The notes below the pieces were generated by a model. That model was given only the letters and a program-made list of their open reading frames with translations, had not been told where the DNA came from and made no database searches. Made by a program: the position numbers and the translations under genes. Below, piece after piece: positions 31,860-60,746 of a DNA stretch of 64,000 nt (position 1 is the stretch's first letter; each line of letters opens with the position of its first letter). The DNA comes from Sandaracinus amylolyticus (lineage in GTDB: Bacteria; Myxococcota_A; Polyangia; Polyangiales; Sandaracinaceae), in NCBI RefSeq assembly GCF_000737325.1, contig NZ_CP011125.1:7502001-7566000 (forward strand). The letters are read 5' to 3'.

Positions 31860-34800
31860 ATGTTCCACTACTTCGGATACGGCTCGAACCTCAGCGTCAT
31901 CTCGCTCCGCGCCAAGGGCGTCCATCCGCTCAGCTCGGAGCCCGCGATCCTCGAAGGATGGCGCCTCACCTTCGACATCCCCGACTTCTTCCCGATCGAA
32001 GGCGGGACGGGGAACATCCAGCCCGCGACCGACGACGCGGTGCACGGCGTGCTGCACGCGTGTCGCGACGCGGATCTCGCGCGGCTCGATCAGCTCGAGG
32101 CGCTCGGCGTCACGTACCGTCGCGTCGAGACCTCGGTCACGACGTACGGCGGTCGGCGCGTGCGCGCGTACGCGTACGTCGGGATCCCCGACATCCTCGA
32201 CGCGCGCTGTCGGCCCTCGGAGCGCTACCGCAACATCCTCGTCGCGGGCGCGACCGACATGCGCCTCGACCCGCGCTACGTCGCGCGGCTGCGCGCGATG
32301 CCCACGCACCCGCGCCCCGAGCGCGGCCCGTTCGTGCCGAGCGAGGACGGACGCGATCACGACGCGGACGAGATCGCGTCGCGCCGCGAGCTCGTCGTGC
32401 TCGCGGGCCACGTCTTCGACACGTCGCACGCGCGCCCCGAGCACACGTACCTGCGCGGCCTGCTCGGCGGACGCGACGCGACGCTGCTCTTCCTGCGCCG
32501 CATGGACACCAGCGACGGCCACGAGCAGCTCGAGACGGTGCGCCGCGGTGTCTTCACGCCCGCGCAGCGCCGCTACCTCGACGGCTACCTGCACGAGTTC
32601 GCGCGCGAGTACCGCTGGGTCGGCCGCGTGCGCAGCGACGACGACGCGCAGCGCGTGCCCGAGATCACGAAGCCTGCGGCGCAGCGCCCGCGCGTGAAGC
32701 GCGCGTCGGACGCACCGAAGCGCGCCTCGTGGGTGCCGACGCACGCGCTCACGTCGCGCCCTCCGGGCACGCTCGTCATCCCGTCGCGCGCGGTGCTCGA
32801 CGAGTCCGATCGCGACTACGAGACGCTCGGCCACGAGAACCGCGGGTTCCTCTCCGACCTGCACGGCTTCATGCCGCGCGAGCAGCCCGCGACGTCGATG
32901 CCCGCGTCGCACCGCGCGTGGGACGAGGTCGCCGCGCAGCTCCCCGCGCTCTACCGCACGCTGAAGCTGCGCCGCGAGATCGACGCGCTGCCGATCCTCG
33001 ATGCGAGCGCGGAGCACCTCGCCGACGAGCACCTGCTGCGCGCGTCGATGGTGCTCGCGATGCTCTCGCACGCGTACCACTACGTCGAGGCGCATCCGCC
33101 GGGGCGCCACCCCGACGCGCTCACGAGGCCGTGGGCCCAGGTGCGCGAGCGGCTCGGGCGCGGGCCCGCGGTGCTCTCGTACCTCGACCTCATCGTCTAC
33201 AACTGGCGCTTCGTCGATCCCGAGGCCGCGGATCCGATGCGCGTCGACAACCTCCGCCTGCTCGTGCCGACCGTCGACACGAAGGAGGAGCGCGTCTTCT
33301 ATCTCACGCAGACCGAGATCCTCGCGCACACCGCGCCGATCGTGAGCGCGGTGGTGCGCGCGCAGGAGGCCGTGGTCACCGACGATCGCGAAGCGCTCGA
33401 GTGCGCGCTCGCGACGATCCTGACGAGCCTGCAGCGCGTGGTGCGCGAGTCGCTGCTGCACATCGATCCCAACCCGCGCGGCCGCACCCACGTCGATCCG
33501 GTGATCTGGGCGAAGGGCGTCGCGCCGTTCGCGGTGCCGATGCAGGAGGGCGTGCAGGGCCCGAGCGGGACGAGCTCGCCGATCTTCAACACGCTCGACG
33601 TGTTCTTCGGTCGCAAGCGCTACGAGACCTTCCTCGGCAAGGAGATCCACGCGCTGCGCACGACGTACCCGCCGCTGTGGCGCGCGTTCCTCGCGGCGCT
33701 GCAGGAGATCTCGGTGCCCGGCTACGTCGCGACGCGCGGCGACGCGAACCTGCGCGGGCTGCTGCAGGACGTGGTCGCGGAGTACGCCGGGCCGAACGGG
33801 TTCCTCGGCCGCCACCGCATGAAGGTCTACGGGTACCTCGAGCTCGCCTTCAAGGTCGGCCGCAGCGTCACGATCGGCGGCTTCAAGGGGATGTTCCGCG
33901 ATCGCACGTGGGACCAGGTCGACGGCGAGCTCGAGAAGGCGCGCGAGGAGCGCGTGCAGAGCTTCCCCGCGACGGTGCACCGCGCGAAGGCCGCGCGCGT
34001 GCTGCCGAGCGATCCCGACGCGGCGGGCGGCGTGCACACCGTGGTGCTCGACGTGCGCGGCACCGGCGTGCGCTTCGAGGCGGGCGATCGCTGCGGCGTG
34101 CTGCCCGAGCACGCGCACTCGCTGATCGCGCGGACGCTGCGCGCGCTGCGCGCGACCGGCGACGAGGAGATGCCGCTCACGCCCGAGTGGCGCGAGCACC
34201 TCGCGATGCGCCCCGACGTCGACGCGGGCGACACGCTGCGCCTCGCCGACATGCTGCGCTTCGGCGCGATCCGCCCGGTCGGGCCGCGCCTCGCCGAGGG
34301 TCTGCACGCGCGCACCCAGCACCCGCTGCTCGAGCACGCGATCACGAGCGGCACCACGTCGCGCTGGGAGCTCTGGGATCTCCTCGAGCTGCTCGCGACG
34401 AGCGGCTTCGATCCCTCGAGGCTGGTGCGCGATCCCGCCACCGGCGAGCCGAGCGCGGCGCTCGCGAAGCTGCTGCCGCCCGAGGCGTTCCGCATGTACT
34501 CGATCTCGTCGGTGATGGGCTCGGCGGGCGGCGGTCACGCCGACGAGCTGCACCTGACGATCGGCCGCGTCGCGTACCGCACCCGCACGACCGAGGGCGG
34601 CCCCGAGATCGAGCGCCGCGGCACGTGCTCGTCGTTCCTCGCGCGCGCGGCGTCGCGCGACGAGCCGATCGCGATCGTGATCCAGCACCCCGCGCGCTTC
34701 GGCCTGCCGCGCAGCGCGCGCACGCCGATCGTCATGATCGCGGGCGGCACCGGGCTCTCGCCGTTCCGCGGGTTCCTCGTCGAGCGCGGCAGGCAGCTCG

Positions 34801-36626
34801 CGGCGGGCCCGGCGTGGCTCTTCCTCGGCATGCGCGAGCGCGCGCACTTCGCGTACGACGACGAGCTCGCGCCGCACCTCGAGAGCGGCACGCTCGAGCT
34901 GCGCGTCGCGATCTCGCGCGAGGACGTCGACGCGCGCGTCGTGAAGGACGGAGGGCGCGCGCGCATCGAGTGGCGCGACGGGACGCGCAAGCGGGTACCC
35001 GATCTGCTCCTCGATCCCGAGACGAGCGCGCGGCTCGACGCGCTGGTGCGCAGCGCGGCCGAGGGCGGCGCCGGCGCGCACGTCTACGTGTGCGGCCGGA
35101 CCGCGTTCGCGCGCAGCGCGCTCGACGCGCTCGAGCAGGTCTTCCGACGACACGCGCGCACCGACGATCCCGCGACCGAGGCGCGCGATCGCATCGCCGA
35201 GATCGTCGCCGAGGGCCGCCTCGCGATCGAGGTGTTCAGCGGTGATCGCGAGCAGGACGCGCTGCCGCCGATCGACGCGTCGGAGCTCGCGCGGCACAAC
35301 GACGAGACGCACGGCCACTGGATGGCGATCGAAGGCCGCGTCTACGACATGACGCAGTTCATCCGCGAGCACCCGGGCGGCCGGCACATCCTCCAGGCCT
35401 ACGCGGGGCTCGACGCGACCGCGGGCTACGCGCGCTCCCACGCAGGGCGCACCGAGATCCACGCGGCGCGCGAGATGTACGCGATCGGCCGGCTGCGCGC
35501 GCTCGATCTCGGCGGCGTGATCGCGACGGTGCACGGCAACGGCAAGAGCCGGCGCGCGTCGCTCTCGGTCGCGCACGGCGCGTGGGTGTCGCTGCTCTTC
35601 CTGCTCGTCGAGATGCAGAACGCGCTGCGCCACGATCACGCGCTGCAGCACGGCGAGACGACGCGGGACGAGCCGCTGCGCCCGCGCTCGCCGTACAAGC
35701 TGCAGCACGCGGTCGAGACGCACCATCGCTTCCTCTGCAGCTACGTCGACGCGCTGTGCGCGGAGTCGATCCCGCACGTGAGCGCGGTGACGCAGGCGTT
35801 CTTCGCGCCCGAGGACGATCCCTTCGTGATGCGCGGAGAGGTGACGGCGCTGCTCGCGAGCGACGAAGCGCGCTTCGTCGACGGGCTCGTGCCCGCGCTC
35901 TTCGAGAGCGTCACGCGGGTGATCGCGGAGGACGACGAGTGGGGCGAGCCGGGCCCGGAGCGGCGGCGGCTCACCCACGCGATCGACGTGCTGGAGCGCG
36001 CGGACGCGGCGCTCCTCGCGTCGCTCAAGCACATCGCGCGCGACGCGGTGCGCGCGTACGAGGCTCACGAGAAGCACGTGATCGAGCGCGACGGCGCCCG
36101 CGTGCAGAGCGCCTGCCGGCGCATGGTGGACGAGCTGCGGCGATATCATCGATCGATCGCGCAGCGACTGGGGCAGAGCAGCGGCTGGGTCGCGCACCCG
36201 CCCGCGAGACGCGCCTCCGAGGTGGAGAGCACGATGACGACGATGCACGCGAACCCGCACTGGACGCTCGAGATCGACGGCGTCGGCCGCTTCCTCGTGC
36301 TCCGGCGCACGCCGGTCCCGTTCGAGACGATCGAGGAGGTCCTGCACTCGAACGACGACGTGATCTCGCACTTCCAGCTGCAGCACCGGCAGTGGGGCAT
36401 CGTCGTCGACATGCGCCAGGCGCCGCGGCGGAACGATCCCGACTTCGAGAACGCGATGCGCCGGCTGCGCGAGCGCATCGGCGAGAGCTTCGCGCGCGTG
36501 GCGCTGGTGCTGAGCAGCGCGGCGGGCGTGCTGCAGGTGAACCGCATCGCGCGCGACGAGGGCGCGTCGACGTTCGCGACGCTCGACGAGAGCGCGGCGG
36601 TGAGGTTCGCGCGCGGGCTCGGGTGA
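31860..36626 (+). CDS. giant fusion: GGCT-like + IDO-like heme domain + FAD/NADPH reductase + cytochrome b5
   Basis: 1588 residues. (1) Residues 1 to about 240: gamma-glutamylcyclotransferase-like fold with YFGYGSNL (4-11) and candidate catalytic Glu80 in LDQLEALG. (2) About 290-690: indoleamine-2,3-dioxygenase-like heme domain with LSHAYHYVE, DLIVYNWRFVDP, QGPSGTSSPIFNTLDVFFG and likely proximal heme ligand His652 in GRHRMKVYGYLE. (3) About 705-1115: cytochrome-P450-reductase-type FAD and NADPH modules with RMYSISS (Arg878), GTCSSFL, GGTGLSPFRG (962) and YVCGRTAFARSA; no flavodoxin (FMN) domain. (4) About 1135-1215: cytochrome b5 with HPGG (His1171) and His1194. (5) About 1220-1588: unknown helical region, then a SpoIIAA/STAS-like end. 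The order suggests NADPH to FAD to b5 to dioxygenase heme. Start by frame and YFGYGSNL position; ribosome-binding site weak. Substrate unknown. Confidence 0.9.
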   Translation: MFHYFGYGSNLSVISLRAKGVHPLSSEPAILEGWRLTFDIPDFFPIEGGTGNIQPATDDAVHGVLHACRDADLARLDQLEALGVTYRRVETSVTTYGGRRVRAYAYVGIPDILDARCRPSERYRNILVAGATDMRLDPRYVARLRAMPTHPRPERGPFVPSEDGRDHDADEIASRRELVVLAGHVFDTSHARPEHTYLRGLLGGRDATLLFLRRMDTSDGHEQLETVRRGVFTPAQRRYLDGYLHEFAREYRWVGRVRSDDDAQRVPEITKPAAQRPRVKRASDAPKRASWVPTHALTSRPPGTLVIPSRAVLDESDRDYETLGHENRGFLSDLHGFMPREQPATSMPASHRAWDEVAAQLPALYRTLKLRREIDALPILDASAEHLADEHLLRASMVLAMLSHAYHYVEAHPPGRHPDALTRPWAQVRERLGRGPAVLSYLDLIVYNWRFVDPEAADPMRVDNLRLLVPTVDTKEERVFYLTQTEILAHTAPIVSAVVRAQEAVVTDDREALECALATILTSLQRVVRESLLHIDPNPRGRTHVDPVIWAKGVAPFAVPMQEGVQGPSGTSSPIFNTLDVFFGRKRYETFLGKEIHALRTTYPPLWRAFLAALQEISVPGYVATRGDANLRGLLQDVVAEYAGPNGFLGRHRMKVYGYLELAFKVGRSVTIGGFKGMFRDRTWDQVDGELEKAREERVQSFPATVHRAKAARVLPSDPDAAGGVHTVVLDVRGTGVRFEAGDRCGVLPEHAHSLIARTLRALRATGDEEMPLTPEWREHLAMRPDVDAGDTLRLADMLRFGAIRPVGPRLAEGLHARTQHPLLEHAITSGTTSRWELWDLLELLATSGFDPSRLVRDPATGEPSAALAKLLPPEAFRMYSISSVMGSAGGGHADELHLTIGRVAYRTRTTEGGPEIERRGTCSSFLARAASRDEPIAIVIQHPARFGLPRSARTPIVMIAGGTGLSPFRGFLVERGRQLAAGPAWLFLGMRERAHFAYDDELAPHLESGTLELRVAISREDVDARVVKDGGRARIEWRDGTRKRVPDLLLDPETSARLDALVRSAAEGGAGAHVYVCGRTAFARSALDALEQVFRRHARTDDPATEARDRIAEIVAEGRLAIEVFSGDREQDALPPIDASELARHNDETHGHWMAIEGRVYDMTQFIREHPGGRHILQAYAGLDATAGYARSHAGRTEIHAAREMYAIGRLRALDLGGVIATVHGNGKSRRASLSVAHGAWVSLLFLLVEMQNALRHDHALQHGETTRDEPLRPRSPYKLQHAVETHHRFLCSYVDALCAESIPHVSAVTQAFFAPEDDPFVMRGEVTALLASDEARFVDGLVPALFESVTRVIAEDDEWGEPGPERRRLTHAIDVLERADAALLASLKHIARDAVRAYEAHEKHVIERDGARVQSACRRMVDELRRYHRSIAQRLGQSSGWVAHPPARRASEVESTMTTMHANPHWTLEIDGVGRFLVLRRTPVPFETIEEVLHSNDDVISHFQLQHRQWGIVVDMRQAPRRNDPDFENAMRRLRERIGESFARVALVLSSAAGVLQVNRIARDEGASTFATLDESAAVRFARGLG
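36221..36236 (+). other. possible internal translation start in the giant fusion
   Basis: GGTGGAG is followed six bases later by an in-frame ATG (residue 1459 of the fusion). Initiation here would give a free 130-residue STAS-like protein (MTTMHANPHW onward), so this C-terminal domain might be made both fused and free. This is inference from spacing only. Confidence 0.35.
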
Positions 36627-36694
36627 GGAGAATTTCCGAGGAGAGTGAGCCGACGCGACCGCCTTGCGCCTCCTCGTTGCAGCGCGACCTCCAA

Positions 36695-36754
36695 CTCACA
36701 CCGGTGTGAGCTGCGACTCGCACCGGTGTGAGTCGGAGCTCACACCGGCGTGAG
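36695..36754. promoter_or_regulatory. three phased palindromic operators (CTCACACCGGTGTGAG)
   Basis: 16-base palindromes start at 36695, 36717 and 36739, exactly 22 bases apart (two helical turns, same face of the helix). The first is perfect; the second and third each have one substitution (A to G in the left arm, T to C in the right arm). The third ends one base before the candidate -10 box at 36756, so protein bound here would cover the promoter of the gene at 36769. Confidence 0.8.
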
Positions 36755-38207: not shown

Positions 38208-41200
38208 TCACCGCGCGCGCCTGCGGCGCAGCGCGATCACGAGCCCGAGCGCGACCATCGCGAGCCACGGCGCGCTCGTCTGCGTCGCGCCGACGCGGCA
38301 CGCGCAGCCGCCTTCGCTCGGCGGCGTCGTGCCTGCGTCGCTGTCCGACGTGCCGCCGTCGATGTCGTTCGTCGACGCGTCCTCGCCGATCGTGCCCGCG
38401 TCGGGATCGCCGGTGCCCGCGTCGTCGTCGATGCCGCCGTCGCCGCCGCCCTCGATCGTGCACTCCGCGCTGCAGCCGTCGCCGTCGTCGACGTCGCCGT
38501 CGTCGCACTGCTCGACGCCTTCCTGAACGAAGCCGTCGCCGCACGTCGCCGCGAAGCAGCCGTCGACGCACGCGTCGTCGTCGCTCGTGTTGCCGTCGTC
38601 GCACTCCTCCATGCCGGCCCAGACCTCGCCGTCGCCGCAGCGCGCCGGCTCGCACTCCGAGAGGCACGCGTCGGTCTCGATCGCGTTGCCGTCGTCGCAG
38701 TCCTCGACCCCCGCACGCACGTAGCCGTCGCCGCACGACGCGGCCGCGCAGCCCACGAGGCATGCGTCCTCGTTGCTCTCGTTGCCGTCGTCGCAGGTCT
38801 CGCCGCTCTGCACGATGCCGTCGCCGCAGTCCGGCGACGCGCACGAGTTCGGGCACGCGTCGGTGTCGACGCGGTTGCCGTCGTCGCAGCTCTCGACCCC
38901 CGCCTGCACGGAGCCGTCGCCGCAGCGCGCGGCGTTGCACATCACGCACGCGTCGGTGTCGCTCGTGTTCGCGTCGTCGCAGTCCTCGGTGCCGGTGCGC
39001 ACGAACCCGTCGCCGCAGCGCGCGAGCTGGCACGCGCCGACGCAGCCGTCGGTGTCGATCGTGTTGCCGTCGTCGCAGATCTCGACGCCGGCGCGCGTGT
39101 AGCCGTCGCCGCACCTCGCCGCCGCGCACGAGTTGAGGCACGCGTCGTCGTTGCTCGTATTGCCGTCGTCGCACGCCTCGACGCCGGCGCGCGGGTAGCC
39201 GTCGCCACAGCGCGCGTCGAAGCACGAGTTGAGGCACGCGTCGCCGTTGCTCGTGTTGCCGTCGTCGCACTGCTCGACGCCGCTGCGCACGAACGCGTCG
39301 CCGCAGCGCGCGAGCACGCACGCGCCGACGCACGCGTCGGTGTCGCTCGCGTTGCCGTCGTCGCACTGCTCGACGCCCGACCACGTGTACGCGTCGCCGC
39401 ACGTCGCGACCGCGCAGCTCGTGAGGCACCCGTCGGTGTTGCTCGGGTTGCCGTCGTCGCACGCCTCGACGCCCGCCTGCACCTGGCCGTCGCCGCAGCG
39501 CGCCGCGACGCACGAATTCAGGCACGCGTCGCCGTTGTTGGTGTTGCCGTCGTCGCAGACCTCGACGCCCGCGCGCACGTAGCCGTCGCCGCACCGCGCG
39601 GCCTGGCACGCGATGCAGCCGTCGGTCGTGACCGAGTTGCCGTCGTCGCACTGCTCGCTGCCCTGCACGATGCCGTCGCCGCAGGTCGCCGCGGCGAGGA
39701 TGCAGGTGCTCGGGCAGCCGTCTCCGTCGGCGGTGTTGCCGTCGTCGCAGGTCTCGACGCCGGCGCGGACGAACCCGTCGCCGCAGCGCGCCGCGACGCA
39801 CGCGCCGACGCAGGTGTCGGTGTTCACCGTGTTGCCGTCGTCGCACTGCTCGGTGCCGGTGCGGACGTAGCCGTCTCCGCAGCGCGCGCTCTGGCACATG
39901 ATGCAGGCGTCGGTGCTCGACGTGTTTCCGTCGTCGCACTGCTCGCTGCCGGTGCGCACCTCGCCGTCACCGCACGTCGCGAGCTGACACGAGCTCAGGC
40001 ACGCGTCGGCGTTGCTCGCGTTGCCGTCGTCGCACTGCTCGGGCCCGTTCGTCGCGCTGTCGCCGCAGCGCGGCCCGAGGCCGGTGCAGCCCGCGTTGCA
40101 GTGGCCGTACTGACCGTTGTTCGCGCCGCTGTCGCACGCTTCGCCGGTCTCCACGACGCCGTTGCCGCACATGACCATGTACGGGAACTCGTACGCGCCC
40201 ATGTCGAACTGCGCGCCGCCGATCCCGTTGCCGTCGAGCGGGCGCGCGACGCCGTTGCGATCGTGATCGGGCGCGAGCATCACGCTCGCCGCGTCGACGC
40301 ACACGCTCGATCCGGTGAGGCGCAGGTCGCTCGGCGCCGCGACGAACAGCGGGTTCGCCGACATGTTCCCGCTCTGTACGATCGGCGAGCCCGAGAAGTT
40401 CGTGCCGTTGTTCCAGACGTCGCTCGACACGACCTCGATCACCGTGCCCGCCCCGGAGCGGTTCACGCCGAAGCCGCCGTTGTTCGTCACGATGCTGTTC
40501 AGCACCCGCACGGACCGCGCGCCCGCGCTCGACTCGACGTGCACGCCGTAGGTCCCGTTGGCGTTCACCGTGCTGCTCAGGAGAAGCGTGTCGAGCGTGG
40601 TCGACGCGTTCTGCTCGACGTGGAGCCCATAGGTCGAGTTGTTGCGGAGCACCGCGTTCGTCAGCGTCGCGCCCCCGCTCGGCGTGACCCGCACGCCCGC
40701 GTTCGAGCACGAGTGGACCGTGATCGCGTCGGCGACCATCGTGCCGATCGCGATCCAGATGCCGTACTGCGCGTCGTGGATCGTCGTGCGCTGCACGACG
40801 TGGTTGGCCGCCGCGCTCTGGTAGAGCCCGTAGGTGCCCCGGCGGATCGTCACGCGATCGAAGGTCGAGGTGCCGGTGCCGTAGAGGCGCACGCCGTACC
40901 ACGCGCCGATGCTGGTCCCCGAGCTCTCGAAGGTGATCTCGCTCTCGGCGGTGCCCGCCGCGACCACACGACCGAACACGCGCAGCTCGGCGCGCGTGGT
41001 GACCTCACCCGACCCCATGACGTCGCTGCTGTTCGCGAAGCGGAGCGTCACGCCGGGCTCGATCGTCAGCACGACGGCCGGCGCGACCGTCAGGTCGCCC
41101 GCGACGGTGTACGGGCTGCCCGCCGCGGTCAGCGTCGTGTTCACCCAGAGCGTCCCGTGCAGTCCCGCCGTCGCGTCGCCGCCGTAAGGCAGCGCGCCGA

Positions 41201-43103
41201 TGTCCGTTCCCGTGCTCGACGCGAAGCGCGCCGGCGAATTCGAGGTCAGCCGCAGGTTCGTCGGCGCGCTCACGAACAGCGGGTTCGACGCGATGTTGTT
41301 CGACTGCGTGATCGGCGAGCCCGAGAAGTTCGTGCCGTTGTTCCACACGTCGCTGTGCGAGACCTCGATCACCGTGCCCGCCCCCGAGCGGTTCACGCCG
41401 AAGCCGCCGTTGTTCGTCACGATGCTGTCGAGCACGCGCACTGCGCGCGCCCCCGCGGTCGACTCCACGTGCACGCCGTACGTGCCGTTGGCGTTCACCG
41501 TGCTCTGACGCAGCACCGTGTCGACCGTGCTCGACGCGTTCTGCTCGACGTGGAGGCCGTACGTCGAGTTGTTGCGCAGCACCGTGTTCGTCAGCGTCGC
41601 GCCCCCGCCCGCCGTGACCCGCACGCCCGCGTTCGAGCACGAGTGCACGGTGAGCGAGTCCGCGACGAGCCCACCGATCGCGACCCACACGCCGTACTGC
41701 GCGTCGTGGATCGTCGTGCGCTGCACGACGTGGTTGGCCGCCGCGCTCTGGTAGAGACCGTAGGTGCCCCGGCGGATCGTCACGTGATCGAAGGTGGAGC
41801 TGCCGGTGCCGTAGAGGCGCACGCCGTACCACGCGCCGATGCTGGTCCCCGAGCTCTCGAAGGTGATCTCGCGCTCGGCGGTGCCCGCCGCGACCACACG
41901 ACCGAAGACGCGCAGCTCGGCGCGCGTGGTGACCTCACCCGACCCCATGGCGTCGCTGCTGTTCGCGAAGCGGAGCGTCACGCCGGGCTCGATCGTCAGC
42001 ACGACGGCCGGCGCGACCGTCAGGTCGCCCGCGACGGTGTACGGGCTGCCCGCCGCGGTCAGCGTCGTGTTCACCCAGAGCGTCCCGTGCAGTCCCGCCG
42101 TCGCGTCGCCGGTGTAAGGCAGCGCGCCGATGTCCGTTCCCGTGCTCGACGCGAAGCGCGCCGGCGAATTCGAGGTCAGCCGTAGGTTCGTCGGCGCGCT
42201 CACGAAGAGCGGGTTCGACGCGATGTTGTTCGACTGCGTGATCGGCGAGCCCGAGAAGTTCGTGCCGTTGTTCCACACGTCGCTGTGCGAGACCTCGATC
42301 ACCGTGCCCGCCCCCGAGCGGTTCACGCCGAAGCCGCCGTTGTTCGTCACGATGCTGTCGAGCACGCGCACTGCGCGCGCCCCCGCGGTCGACTCCACGT
42401 GCACGCCGTACGTGCCGTTGGCGTTCACCGTGCTCCGACGCAGCACCGTGTCGACCGTGCTCGACGCGTTCTGCTCGACGTGGAGGCCGTACGTCGAGTT
42501 GTTGCGCAGCACCGCATCGGTCAGCGTCGCGCCGGCGCCCGGCGTGATCCGCACGCCCGCGTTCGAGCACGAGTGCACGGTCAGGCGCTGCAGGTCGGGT
42601 GCGCCGGCGTCCAGCCAGAGGCCGTACTGCGAAGTGTGGATGGTCGTGTCGGCGACGACGAGCGCGCTGCCCGCGGCGCTCGAGCGGATCCCGTAGGTGG
42701 CCTCTTCGATGCTCGCGTAGCGGATGATCGCCTCGCTGGCCCCGCTCTGGACCGCGATGCCCCACCAGCTGCCGACGGCCGAGCCCGTGCTGCGGATCGT
42801 GACCGGCGAGGACGCCGTGCCCTCCACCCGCAGCGAGCCCTGCACGATGATCTCGACGCGTGTCGTGCTCGCGCCCGAGCCCTGCCCGTCGCTCGTCGCG
42901 ACGTCGATCACCACGCCGGGCTGGATCGTCAGCGTGGAGCCCGCGGGAACGATGATGTCCCCGTTGATGCGGTACGGGCTCCCGGCTGGAGTCCAGGTCT
43001 GGTTGATGATGTTGCCGCCCGGGACGGTCGTCTGCGCGGACGCGGCAGACGCGAAGAGCCAGAGCGAAGCGAAGAGCAGAGCGAACGAGGTGGCGCGACG
43101 CAC
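38208..43103 (-). CDS. second giant beta-helix/DUF4215 surface protein with MYXO-CTERM-type tail
   Basis: 1631 residues from a GTG preceded by GGGGGAGG five bases away, opening a signal peptide ([15 protein letters not shown], cleavage near ASAAS-AQ). Residues about 25-1000 are beta-helix modules with recurring blocks [33 protein letters not shown] and [16 protein letters not shown]. Eighteen DUF4215 Cys-rich modules ([22 protein letters not shown]) follow, then an Asp-rich linker, GCACR, a hydrophobic segment and RRRRAR. It is a clear paralogue of the protein at 10264-14532: same domain order and opening (GGNxINQTWT), but different repeat sequences. Probable surface adhesin; co-transcribed with the GGDEF-type gene. 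Confidence 0.9.
40370..42600 (-). repeat. 930-bp internal repeats in the second beta-helix gene
   Basis: About 2.4 copies of a 930-base (310-codon) unit; for example GACCTCACCCGACCCCATG recurs exactly 930 bases apart (41002 and 41932). The copies starting near 41200 and 42130 are nearly identical at DNA level; the first and last copies are more diverged. Confidence 0.85.
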
Positions 43104-43228
43104 GAGGACCTCCCCCACGACGGGGCTACGATACGCGAGCTCTCCGAGCGGCCTGCCTCGTTTTTCGCGTGAGAGCGCACGGGACGCAGCGCCGATGTCG
43201 GCCTTCGGCGTACCCCCGCGCCGCGCGA

Positions 43229-44263
43229 TCACGCGCGGGCGCGTGGACGACGACGCAGCGCGAGCGCGAGGATCGCGAGCATCGTCGCGATCGGTGCGAG
43301 CGACACACGGCCGCGCGAGACCGCGCACGAGCCCGAGTCGTCACGCGCCGTGCTCGCGTCGGCGCCCGCATCGATGCCTGCGTCCACGCTCGTCGCTGCG
43401 TCGGTGTCCGCCGACGCGTCGGCGCGCACGCCTCCGTCGGGGTCGAGGTCGTTCGCGCAGCCCAGATCGGCGGCCGGCAGCGGCGTCGGCGCCGACACGT
43501 TGCCCGCGGCATCGATCGCCAGGAGGCCGGCTCCGGTGCCCGACGCGCGCGGCACGCGCGGCACGATGTGCAGCGCAGTGCCGGTGCCCGACACGATGCG
43601 CTCCACCGATCCCGAGGTCGAGATCGTGTGCACTCCGCCGACCGCGCCGTTCGCGTACACGAGCGCGAGGCCGCCGTCGTCGGTCGACGACCAGGTGAAC
43701 CGCACGACCGCAGCGACGTGCGGCCCGCAGCACCCGTCGTTCCCGCAGACCACCGGCGAGCACGCGCTTGCGCTCACGCTCGGCGCGGTCGGCGGCGTGT
43801 CGTCGATCGTGTCGCCGGTGGTGAACGTCGCGAGCACCTCCGCGGCTCCGGCCGCGCACTCGATCGCGAGGTGTCCGTAGTCGCGCGCGCCGAGCACCTC
43901 GTACGTGCGATCCGCGGCGAGCATCGCGACGGGGCGCATCCGGTTCCACACGGGCGAGCGCTCGAGCGCGACGAGCTCGCCGGTCGTCGTGTCGCGGAGC
44001 GTGATCGCGTCGCGCAGCTGCACCGGCTCGTGGCCGGGCGGGAGATCGATGTGATAGGCGACCTCGATCTCGACGTTGAGCGGGACATCGGTCGCGCCGT
44101 CGGGCGGAGACGTGTGCGTGATCTCCGGGCACGGGGTCGGCAGCGAGCACGCCCTCGCGGACGTCGGATCGAGCACGAGCACGAGCGTGCACAACGAGCT
44201 CGCGAGGACGAGGAGCGTTGGGTTGGCGAGGGATGACACACCTTCGCGTCGAGCCAGTCGCAT
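43229..44263 (-). CDS. exported Ig-like-domain protein with MYXO-CTERM-type tail
   Basis: 344 residues starting at [15 protein letters not shown], with GGAGGAG about nine bases upstream and the preceding gene's stop five bases away. A hydrophobic signal precedes ARACSLP. Residues about 45-140 resemble the bacterial Big_5 (SbsA Ig-like) domain: [20 protein letters not shown], then a strand-rich run ending [10 protein letters not shown] second beta domain has a CC pair (CGNDGCCGP). An Asp/Ala-rich linker, GSCAVSRG, a hydrophobic helix and RRRPRARA close the protein, a sorting-signal layout. Its position directly after the two-component regulator gene suggests one transcript. Confidence 0.85.

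Positions 44264-59981: not shown

Positions 59982-60739
<758 letters not shown>

Positions 60740-60746
<7 letters not shown>

Follow-up and report, generated by a model that had tools for sequence, protein, structure and literature searches.

An IDO-like heme domain joined to a FAD/NADPH reductase and cytochrome b5 in one chain of Sandaracinus amylolyticus and other Myxococcota

The window analyzed here is a stretch of 64,000 nucleotides from the genome of Sandaracinus amylolyticus (contig NZ_CP011125.1, positions 7,502,001 to 7,566,000), which is assembled as a single contig of 10.3 Mb and harbors one locus of the indoleamine 2,3-dioxygenase (IDO) family. This locus encodes a protein in which seven domains are arranged from the N- to the C-terminus in the order gamma-glutamylcyclotransferase-like (GGCT), MAPR-like b5, IDO-like heme, FAD/NADPH reductase, cytochrome b5, helical and STAS (Table 1). 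In a sequence comparison against the structure database the whole protein matches CysJ, P450 reductases as well as human IDO1 and IDO2. The start codon is backed by the GGCT-bearing relatives, which begin at the same first residue, share the pattern [MLV]F[YH][YH]F.YGSN and use ATG, GTG or TTG. An open reading frame of 1921 amino acids on the antisense strand was rejected as a gene, since it is a mere by-product of the high GC content.

Table 1. Coordinates of the gene, its domains and selected residues (positions within the window; hIDO1, human IDO1)
Feature	Position	Strand	Basis
Whole gene, 1588 aa	31860..36626	+	ATG start, without internal stop
GGCT-like domain, residues 1-150	31860..32309	+	PF06094, PF13772
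MAPR/PGRMC1-like cytochrome b5-fold domain, residues ~160-262	32337..32645	+	profile match
IDO-like heme domain, residues 312-700	32793..33959	+	PF01231 and profile-profile match to canonical IDOs
Gln484, position of hIDO1 Ser167	33309..33311	+	alignment
Ala555, position of hIDO1 Arg231	33522..33524	+	alignment
His652, predicted proximal heme ligand (hIDO1 His346)	33813..33815	+	invariant; MAFFT and hhalign alignment
TIGG, residues 671-674, position of the GTGG motif of IDO/TDO	33870..33881	+	alignment
FAD/NADPH reductase, CysJ/CPR type without FMN domain	33957..35243	+	1ddg match 1.2e-51; NF004859 4.8e-37
Cytochrome b5 domain with HPGG	35247..35525	+	PF00173 4.1e-20
Helical domain, residues ~1218-1442	35511..36185	+	six helices predicted, good local confidence
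STAS/SpoIIAA-like domain, residues ~1465-1588	36207..36623	+	structure comparison

A first-pass annotation of this DNA had described an IDO-like domain, a FAD/NADPH module and a cytochrome b5 in one uninterrupted frame, and Pfam, NCBIfam and structure matches bear this out. The three domains lie where they had been placed, whereas the GGCT, MAPR-like b5, helical and STAS domains had been overlooked. For the IDO-like domain, PF01231 matches residues 333-616 (E 1.8e-35 to 3.1e-37) and a profile of the domain matches canonical bacterial IDOs and human IDO2 with an E of 6.3e-39 and a probability of 99.96% (hhalign). The AlphaFold model of this domain has a pLDDT of 36, obtained with an alignment of two rows only, and the fold assignment therefore rests on the sequence profiles. 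His652, already proposed as candidate proximal ligand, is invariant in the nine fused lineages that were compared at the IDO residues, and both MAFFT and hhalign align it with the proximal histidine of canonical IDOs. Among the closer relatives the IDO domain is the best conserved part, with an identity of 56–65% in comparison to 40–50% for the reductase and 23–36% for the helical domain, which suggests that it is the functional core of the fusion.

The reductase belongs to the type found in CysJ and NADPH-cytochrome P450 reductase (CPR). A profile built from nine relatives aligns end-to-end, including the connecting domain, with the FAD/NADPH module of CysJ (1ddg), and the module ends with E1124-V-F1126, where Phe1126 corresponds to the C-terminal aromatic residue of CysJ. 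The best NCBIfam match is sulfite reductase subunit alpha (NF004859, residues 719-1031), and NAD_binding_1 of Pfam matches residues 959-1087 (E 4.1e-10). FAD_binding_1 stays below the Pfam cut-off in this protein and exceeds it in the relatives L052, L056 and L035. The motifs R878-x-Y880-S881, GGTG at 962 and Cys1078 are present; the relatives retain RxYS, GGTG and YVCG, with AGSG or AGTG replacing GGTG in two members. NADPH is the probable donor of choice, judging by the family and by a conserved SR motif. A search of the protein with PF00258 gave no match to a FMN domain, and no space is left for one between the IDO and FAD modules, in agreement with the earlier description of a CPR-type module devoid of this domain. 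The following cytochrome b5 (PF00173 at residues 1140-1212) was likewise correctly recognized, and its two predicted heme ligands, His1171 and His1194, are shared by every relative without exception.

The additional domains are located at both ends of this central part. At the N-terminus, the GGCT-like domain matches PF06094 at residues 4-108 (E 1.1e-9 to 3.5e-11) and PF13772 (2.8e-9), and displays the motifs YGSN at 7 and LDQLEALG at 76. It is followed by the MAPR-like region, whose profile matches 1t0g (2e-4) and PGRMC1 (4x8y, 7e-4). The helical domain matches no Pfam family, and neither a convincing sequence match in the PDB nor an informative fold match was obtained for it; a glutamate, an asparagine, a histidine, an aspartate and a second glutamate are invariant in it. 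All other parts of the fusion belong to known families. Within the class, the helical domain occurs almost only in the fusion. The exception is an open frame of 210 amino acids in the genome G538 (L092:132-617), which matches the helical domain only and has no IDO, reductase or b5 nearby; it is either a free-standing helical domain or a remnant. At the C-terminus, structure comparison by VIA relates the last domain to the stressosome protein RsbS and to SpoIIAA (Z ~10, rmsd ~3 over ~110 residues), and the Foldseek E value for this domain is weak on its own. The four overlooked domains point partly to signaling.

The core of IDO, FAD/NADPH, b5 and helical domain is present in one frame in ten genomes of Myxococcota including this one, spanning at least two classes. 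The first-pass annotation had suggested a search for proteins sharing all three of its domains, and this revealed the nine further genomes: two of the same family (G150, G590), five of the same order (G112, G488, G492, G560, G577), one of the same class (G456) and one of another class (G220). Since the same core occurs in one open frame in all nine, a frameshift or an assembly error joining separate genes, which had been named as a possible artifact, is excluded. In the sample of the class, 14 of 318 genomes have a match to the IDO family, nine of them as the fusion. The locus L002, whose N-terminus is truncated by a contig end, is identical in sequence to the locus L054 of G492 and is thus assigned to the Myxococcota.

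The ends of the fusion vary. The N-terminal block of GGCT and MAPR-like domain is missing in L035, L051 and L056, and the C-terminal tail consists of STAS in most members, of two cNMP-binding domains in L035, and is lacking in L056. A tree of IDO domains places the nine fused domains in one clade (support 100/100) on a stem of 1.67, separate from the canonical IDOs and from an IDO-like lineage with cNMP-like tails. As long branches meet at this stem, the tree is used solely to show that the clade is a unit, and its exact placement is unsure. Among viral contigs no relative of the fusion was found, and the best matches on plasmids lie within the reductase, with none spanning the fusion. Statements on the range of the fusion are confined to the Myxococcota; other phyla were covered by one coarse scan of bacterial and archaeal genomes with short peptides of the single protein, which gave one close relative.

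The lineage with cNMP-like tails comprises L068, L069, L070 and L071 (G038, G068, G325, G238). Here, Arg231 is replaced by Gln and GTGG by STGG, and C-terminal to the heme domain the proteins carry sequence that, as read by eye, resembles cNMP-binding domains. These proteins are possible IDO-fold sensors. Another IDO-like group (L047 and L048 from G486 and G484) carries Gln for Arg231, Thr for Phe163 and SVSG at the position of GTGG.

Within the window, the open reading frames adjacent to the fusion belong to no recognized family. Just 3′ of its stop codon, at 36690-36754, a 22-base repeat based on the palindrome CACACCGGTGTG occurs three times and may serve as a terminator or regulatory site. 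On the reverse strand, 38208-43328 encodes beta-helix-like repeats, then about 16 cysteine-rich CGDG...CDDGN repeats and a MYXO-CTERM-like tail, and the product is probably a secreted repeat protein. Further downstream, the forward frame 59982-60746 reads like a putative type III pantothenate kinase (MLLTIDVGNTHTVLGL).

Across the genera the neighborhoods of the fusion vary; signaling genes recur, and the conserved neighbors do not form a biosynthetic or catabolic cluster. A gene for a PAS histidine kinase-receiver lies directly upstream in two genera (L034:12145-13818 and L051:7848-9434; 51% identity), and a CBS-domain gene occupies this place in two classes (L056:6233-6742 and L035:6185-7039; 47% identity), namely beside the two most divergent members of the fusion. 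In L002 and L052, separate STAS-like genes lie next to the fusion. On the level of the whole genomes, tryptophan 2,3-dioxygenase (TDO) exceeds its curated cut-off in seven of the ten fusion genomes, and kynureninase does so in none of them.

The residues lining the substrate site set the fused domains apart from canonical IDOs, and MAFFT and hhalign agree on which of them are lost. The position of Arg231, whose ion pair with the carboxylate of tryptophan has been called critical in human IDO1 (PMC5700043), is Ala in all nine fused lineages, whereas the 11 canonical IDOs compared in the phylum all have Arg. At the GTGG position TIGG, TNGG or TNSG is found, so that the T379 site is Ile or Asn. 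Leu or Val stands in place of Glu171 in all nine, which also lack the W237 loop on the substrate side. The equivalents of Phe163 and Tyr126 are retained. At the distal Ser167 position eight of the nine fused lineages have Gln, whereas canonical bacterial IDOs have His.

Taken together, we favor a heme protein of the IDO fold that is self-sufficient and most likely acts as an O2-activating oxygenase on a substrate other than free tryptophan; to this reading we assign a probability of roughly 45%. The idea of a self-reducing heme enzyme, put forward in the first-pass annotation, is supported as far as the architecture, the choice of proximal histidine and the logic of NADPH, FAD, b5 and heme are concerned, on the basis of the sequence and its conservation in ten genomes. 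Its label as a dioxygenase of tryptophan or indoles is not supported in view of the exchanges at Arg231, T379 and Glu171, the deleted W237 loop and the presence of TDO.

Such a label would describe a tryptophan/indole 2,3-dioxygenase in which reductase and b5 merely hold the heme ferrous. The match to the IDO family, the conserved proximal histidine and the retained Phe163 and Tyr126 fit to this, as does b5 as a known reductant of IDO (PMC4191572). Nevertheless, the residues holding tryptophan are lost in nine of nine lineages, these lineages group in a single clade with a long stem, and a second tryptophan-degrading enzyme would be unexpected in the genomes with TDO, since bacteria tend to possess either TDO or IDO (PMC4191572). 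This makes a self-reducing tryptophan dioxygenase of the ordinary kind unlikely, and the indole version included we regard the whole proposal as improbable. More improbable still is a protein that uses the IDO fold in the manner of a flavohemoglobin, as an NO dioxygenase or as a reductase that detoxifies O2. The distal Gln484 resembles the glutamine of flavohemoglobins, heme and FAD/NADPH module share one chain, and IDO-derived myoglobins exist in molluscs (PMC4191572), but flavohemoglobins need neither b5 nor GGCT or helical domain, and in the neighborhoods examined no link to genes of NO stress was found.

The main rival is a redox or gas (O2, NO or CO) sensor-transducer, because the variable tails and the neighbors are signaling modules. 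In such a protein, reductase and b5 would reset the IDO-fold heme, and this heme would drive a conformational signal that is passed via the helical domain to the STAS or cNMP tails or to PAS-kinase or CBS partners. The stressosome/SpoIIAA fold of the C-terminus, its replacement by two cNMP domains in L035, the conserved upstream kinase and CBS genes, the separate STAS-like genes and the second IDO-like lineage with cNMP-like tails all argue for it. On the contrary, a complete NADPH reductase together with a b5 is seldom required in a sensor, the neighbors in the window are not recognizable as signaling genes, and conservation is highest in the IDO domain including the distal pocket, whereas the domains that would form the output show the lowest conservation or, as the STAS domain in L056, are absent. 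That the heme domain is so well conserved cannot, taken alone, decide between the two readings, and the neighboring signaling genes fit to a sensor as well as to an oxygenase, which counts against the latter. We consider the sensor possible but on balance not likely. A reading that joins both functions is a somewhat more doubtful proposal: the IDO-fold heme, freed from binding of tryptophan and wired to NADPH via FAD and b5, might form a redox- or gas-responsive oxygenase, which uses the helical domain to signal to partners of the STAS, cNMP, PAS-kinase or CBS kind.

For the favored oxygenase, a path of electrons can be proposed, provided that the domains are loaded with their predicted cofactors. 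NADPH would reduce the FAD, as the intact CysJ-like module suggests. Since the FMN domain, which usually splits the electron pair, is absent, the FAD would hand over single electrons to the bis-His heme of the b5, which in turn would reduce the IDO-fold heme carried by His652; for mammalian IDO, a reduction by cytochrome b5 is known (PMC4191572). The ferrous heme would then bind O2 beside Gln484, and repeated delivery of electrons could lead to monooxygenation of a neutral or amine-type aromatic compound, which appears likelier than a simple dioxygenation of tryptophan. A monooxygenation would account best for a stoichiometric supply of electrons and is favored for this reason. With the carboxylate clamp lost, a compound lacking a free amino-acid carboxylate is the more plausible substrate. 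Monooxygenation is within reach of the superfamily: human IDO shows monooxygenase activity (PMC12921851), and MarE is a monooxygenase forming 2-oxindoles in the presence of a reductant (PMC11904535). Against the oxygenase it has to be noted that MarE retains its carboxylate-binding arginine although it is a monooxygenase (PMC11904535). Speculatively, the GGCT-like domain might free an amine from a gamma-glutamyl conjugate, and three lineages lack this domain.

Several known systems resemble parts of this protein. With human IDO1 and IDO2 and the bacterial IDOs (PF01231) it shares the IDO profile, the proximal histidine, Phe163 and Tyr126; in contrast to these, it carries its own reductants and has lost Arg231, GTGG, Glu171 and the W237 loop. 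P450-BM3 (CYP102) also joins an oxygenase-type heme domain with a FAD/NADPH reductase in one chain, and the reductase profile matches bifunctional P450/P450-reductase chains as well. In the fusion, no P450 profile of Pfam matches; its heme domain is IDO-like, the FMN domain is absent, and the middle place is taken by a cytochrome b5. With CysJ and NADPH-cytochrome P450 reductase, the connecting domain and the C-terminal aromatic residue are shared, whereas the module of the fusion has no FMN domain and is followed by the b5. Flavohemoglobins likewise combine an O2-binding heme domain and a FAD/NAD(P)H reductase, but theirs is a globin, and b5, GGCT, helical and STAS domains are extra in the fusion. 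MarE and PrnB represent members of the heme dioxygenase superfamily with reactions beyond tryptophan dioxygenation; in contrast to the fusion, they have no built-in reductase and both bind an amino-acid carboxylate. The first-pass annotation knew of no described enzyme with this order of domains, and in the open-access literature no description of a fusion of IDO, reductase and b5 was found.

If confirmed, the fusion would represent a new architecture of self-sufficient heme enzymes alongside P450-BM3, nitric oxide synthase and flavohemoglobin. The long-debated role of cytochrome b5 as the natural electron donor of IDO-type hemes could then be tested within one chain, and the built-in reductase would make it an attractive scaffold for biocatalysis. 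With the tryptophan clamp lost and the heme ligand kept, this family of the Myxococcota would be a natural experiment on the IDO fold outside of tryptophan dioxygenation.
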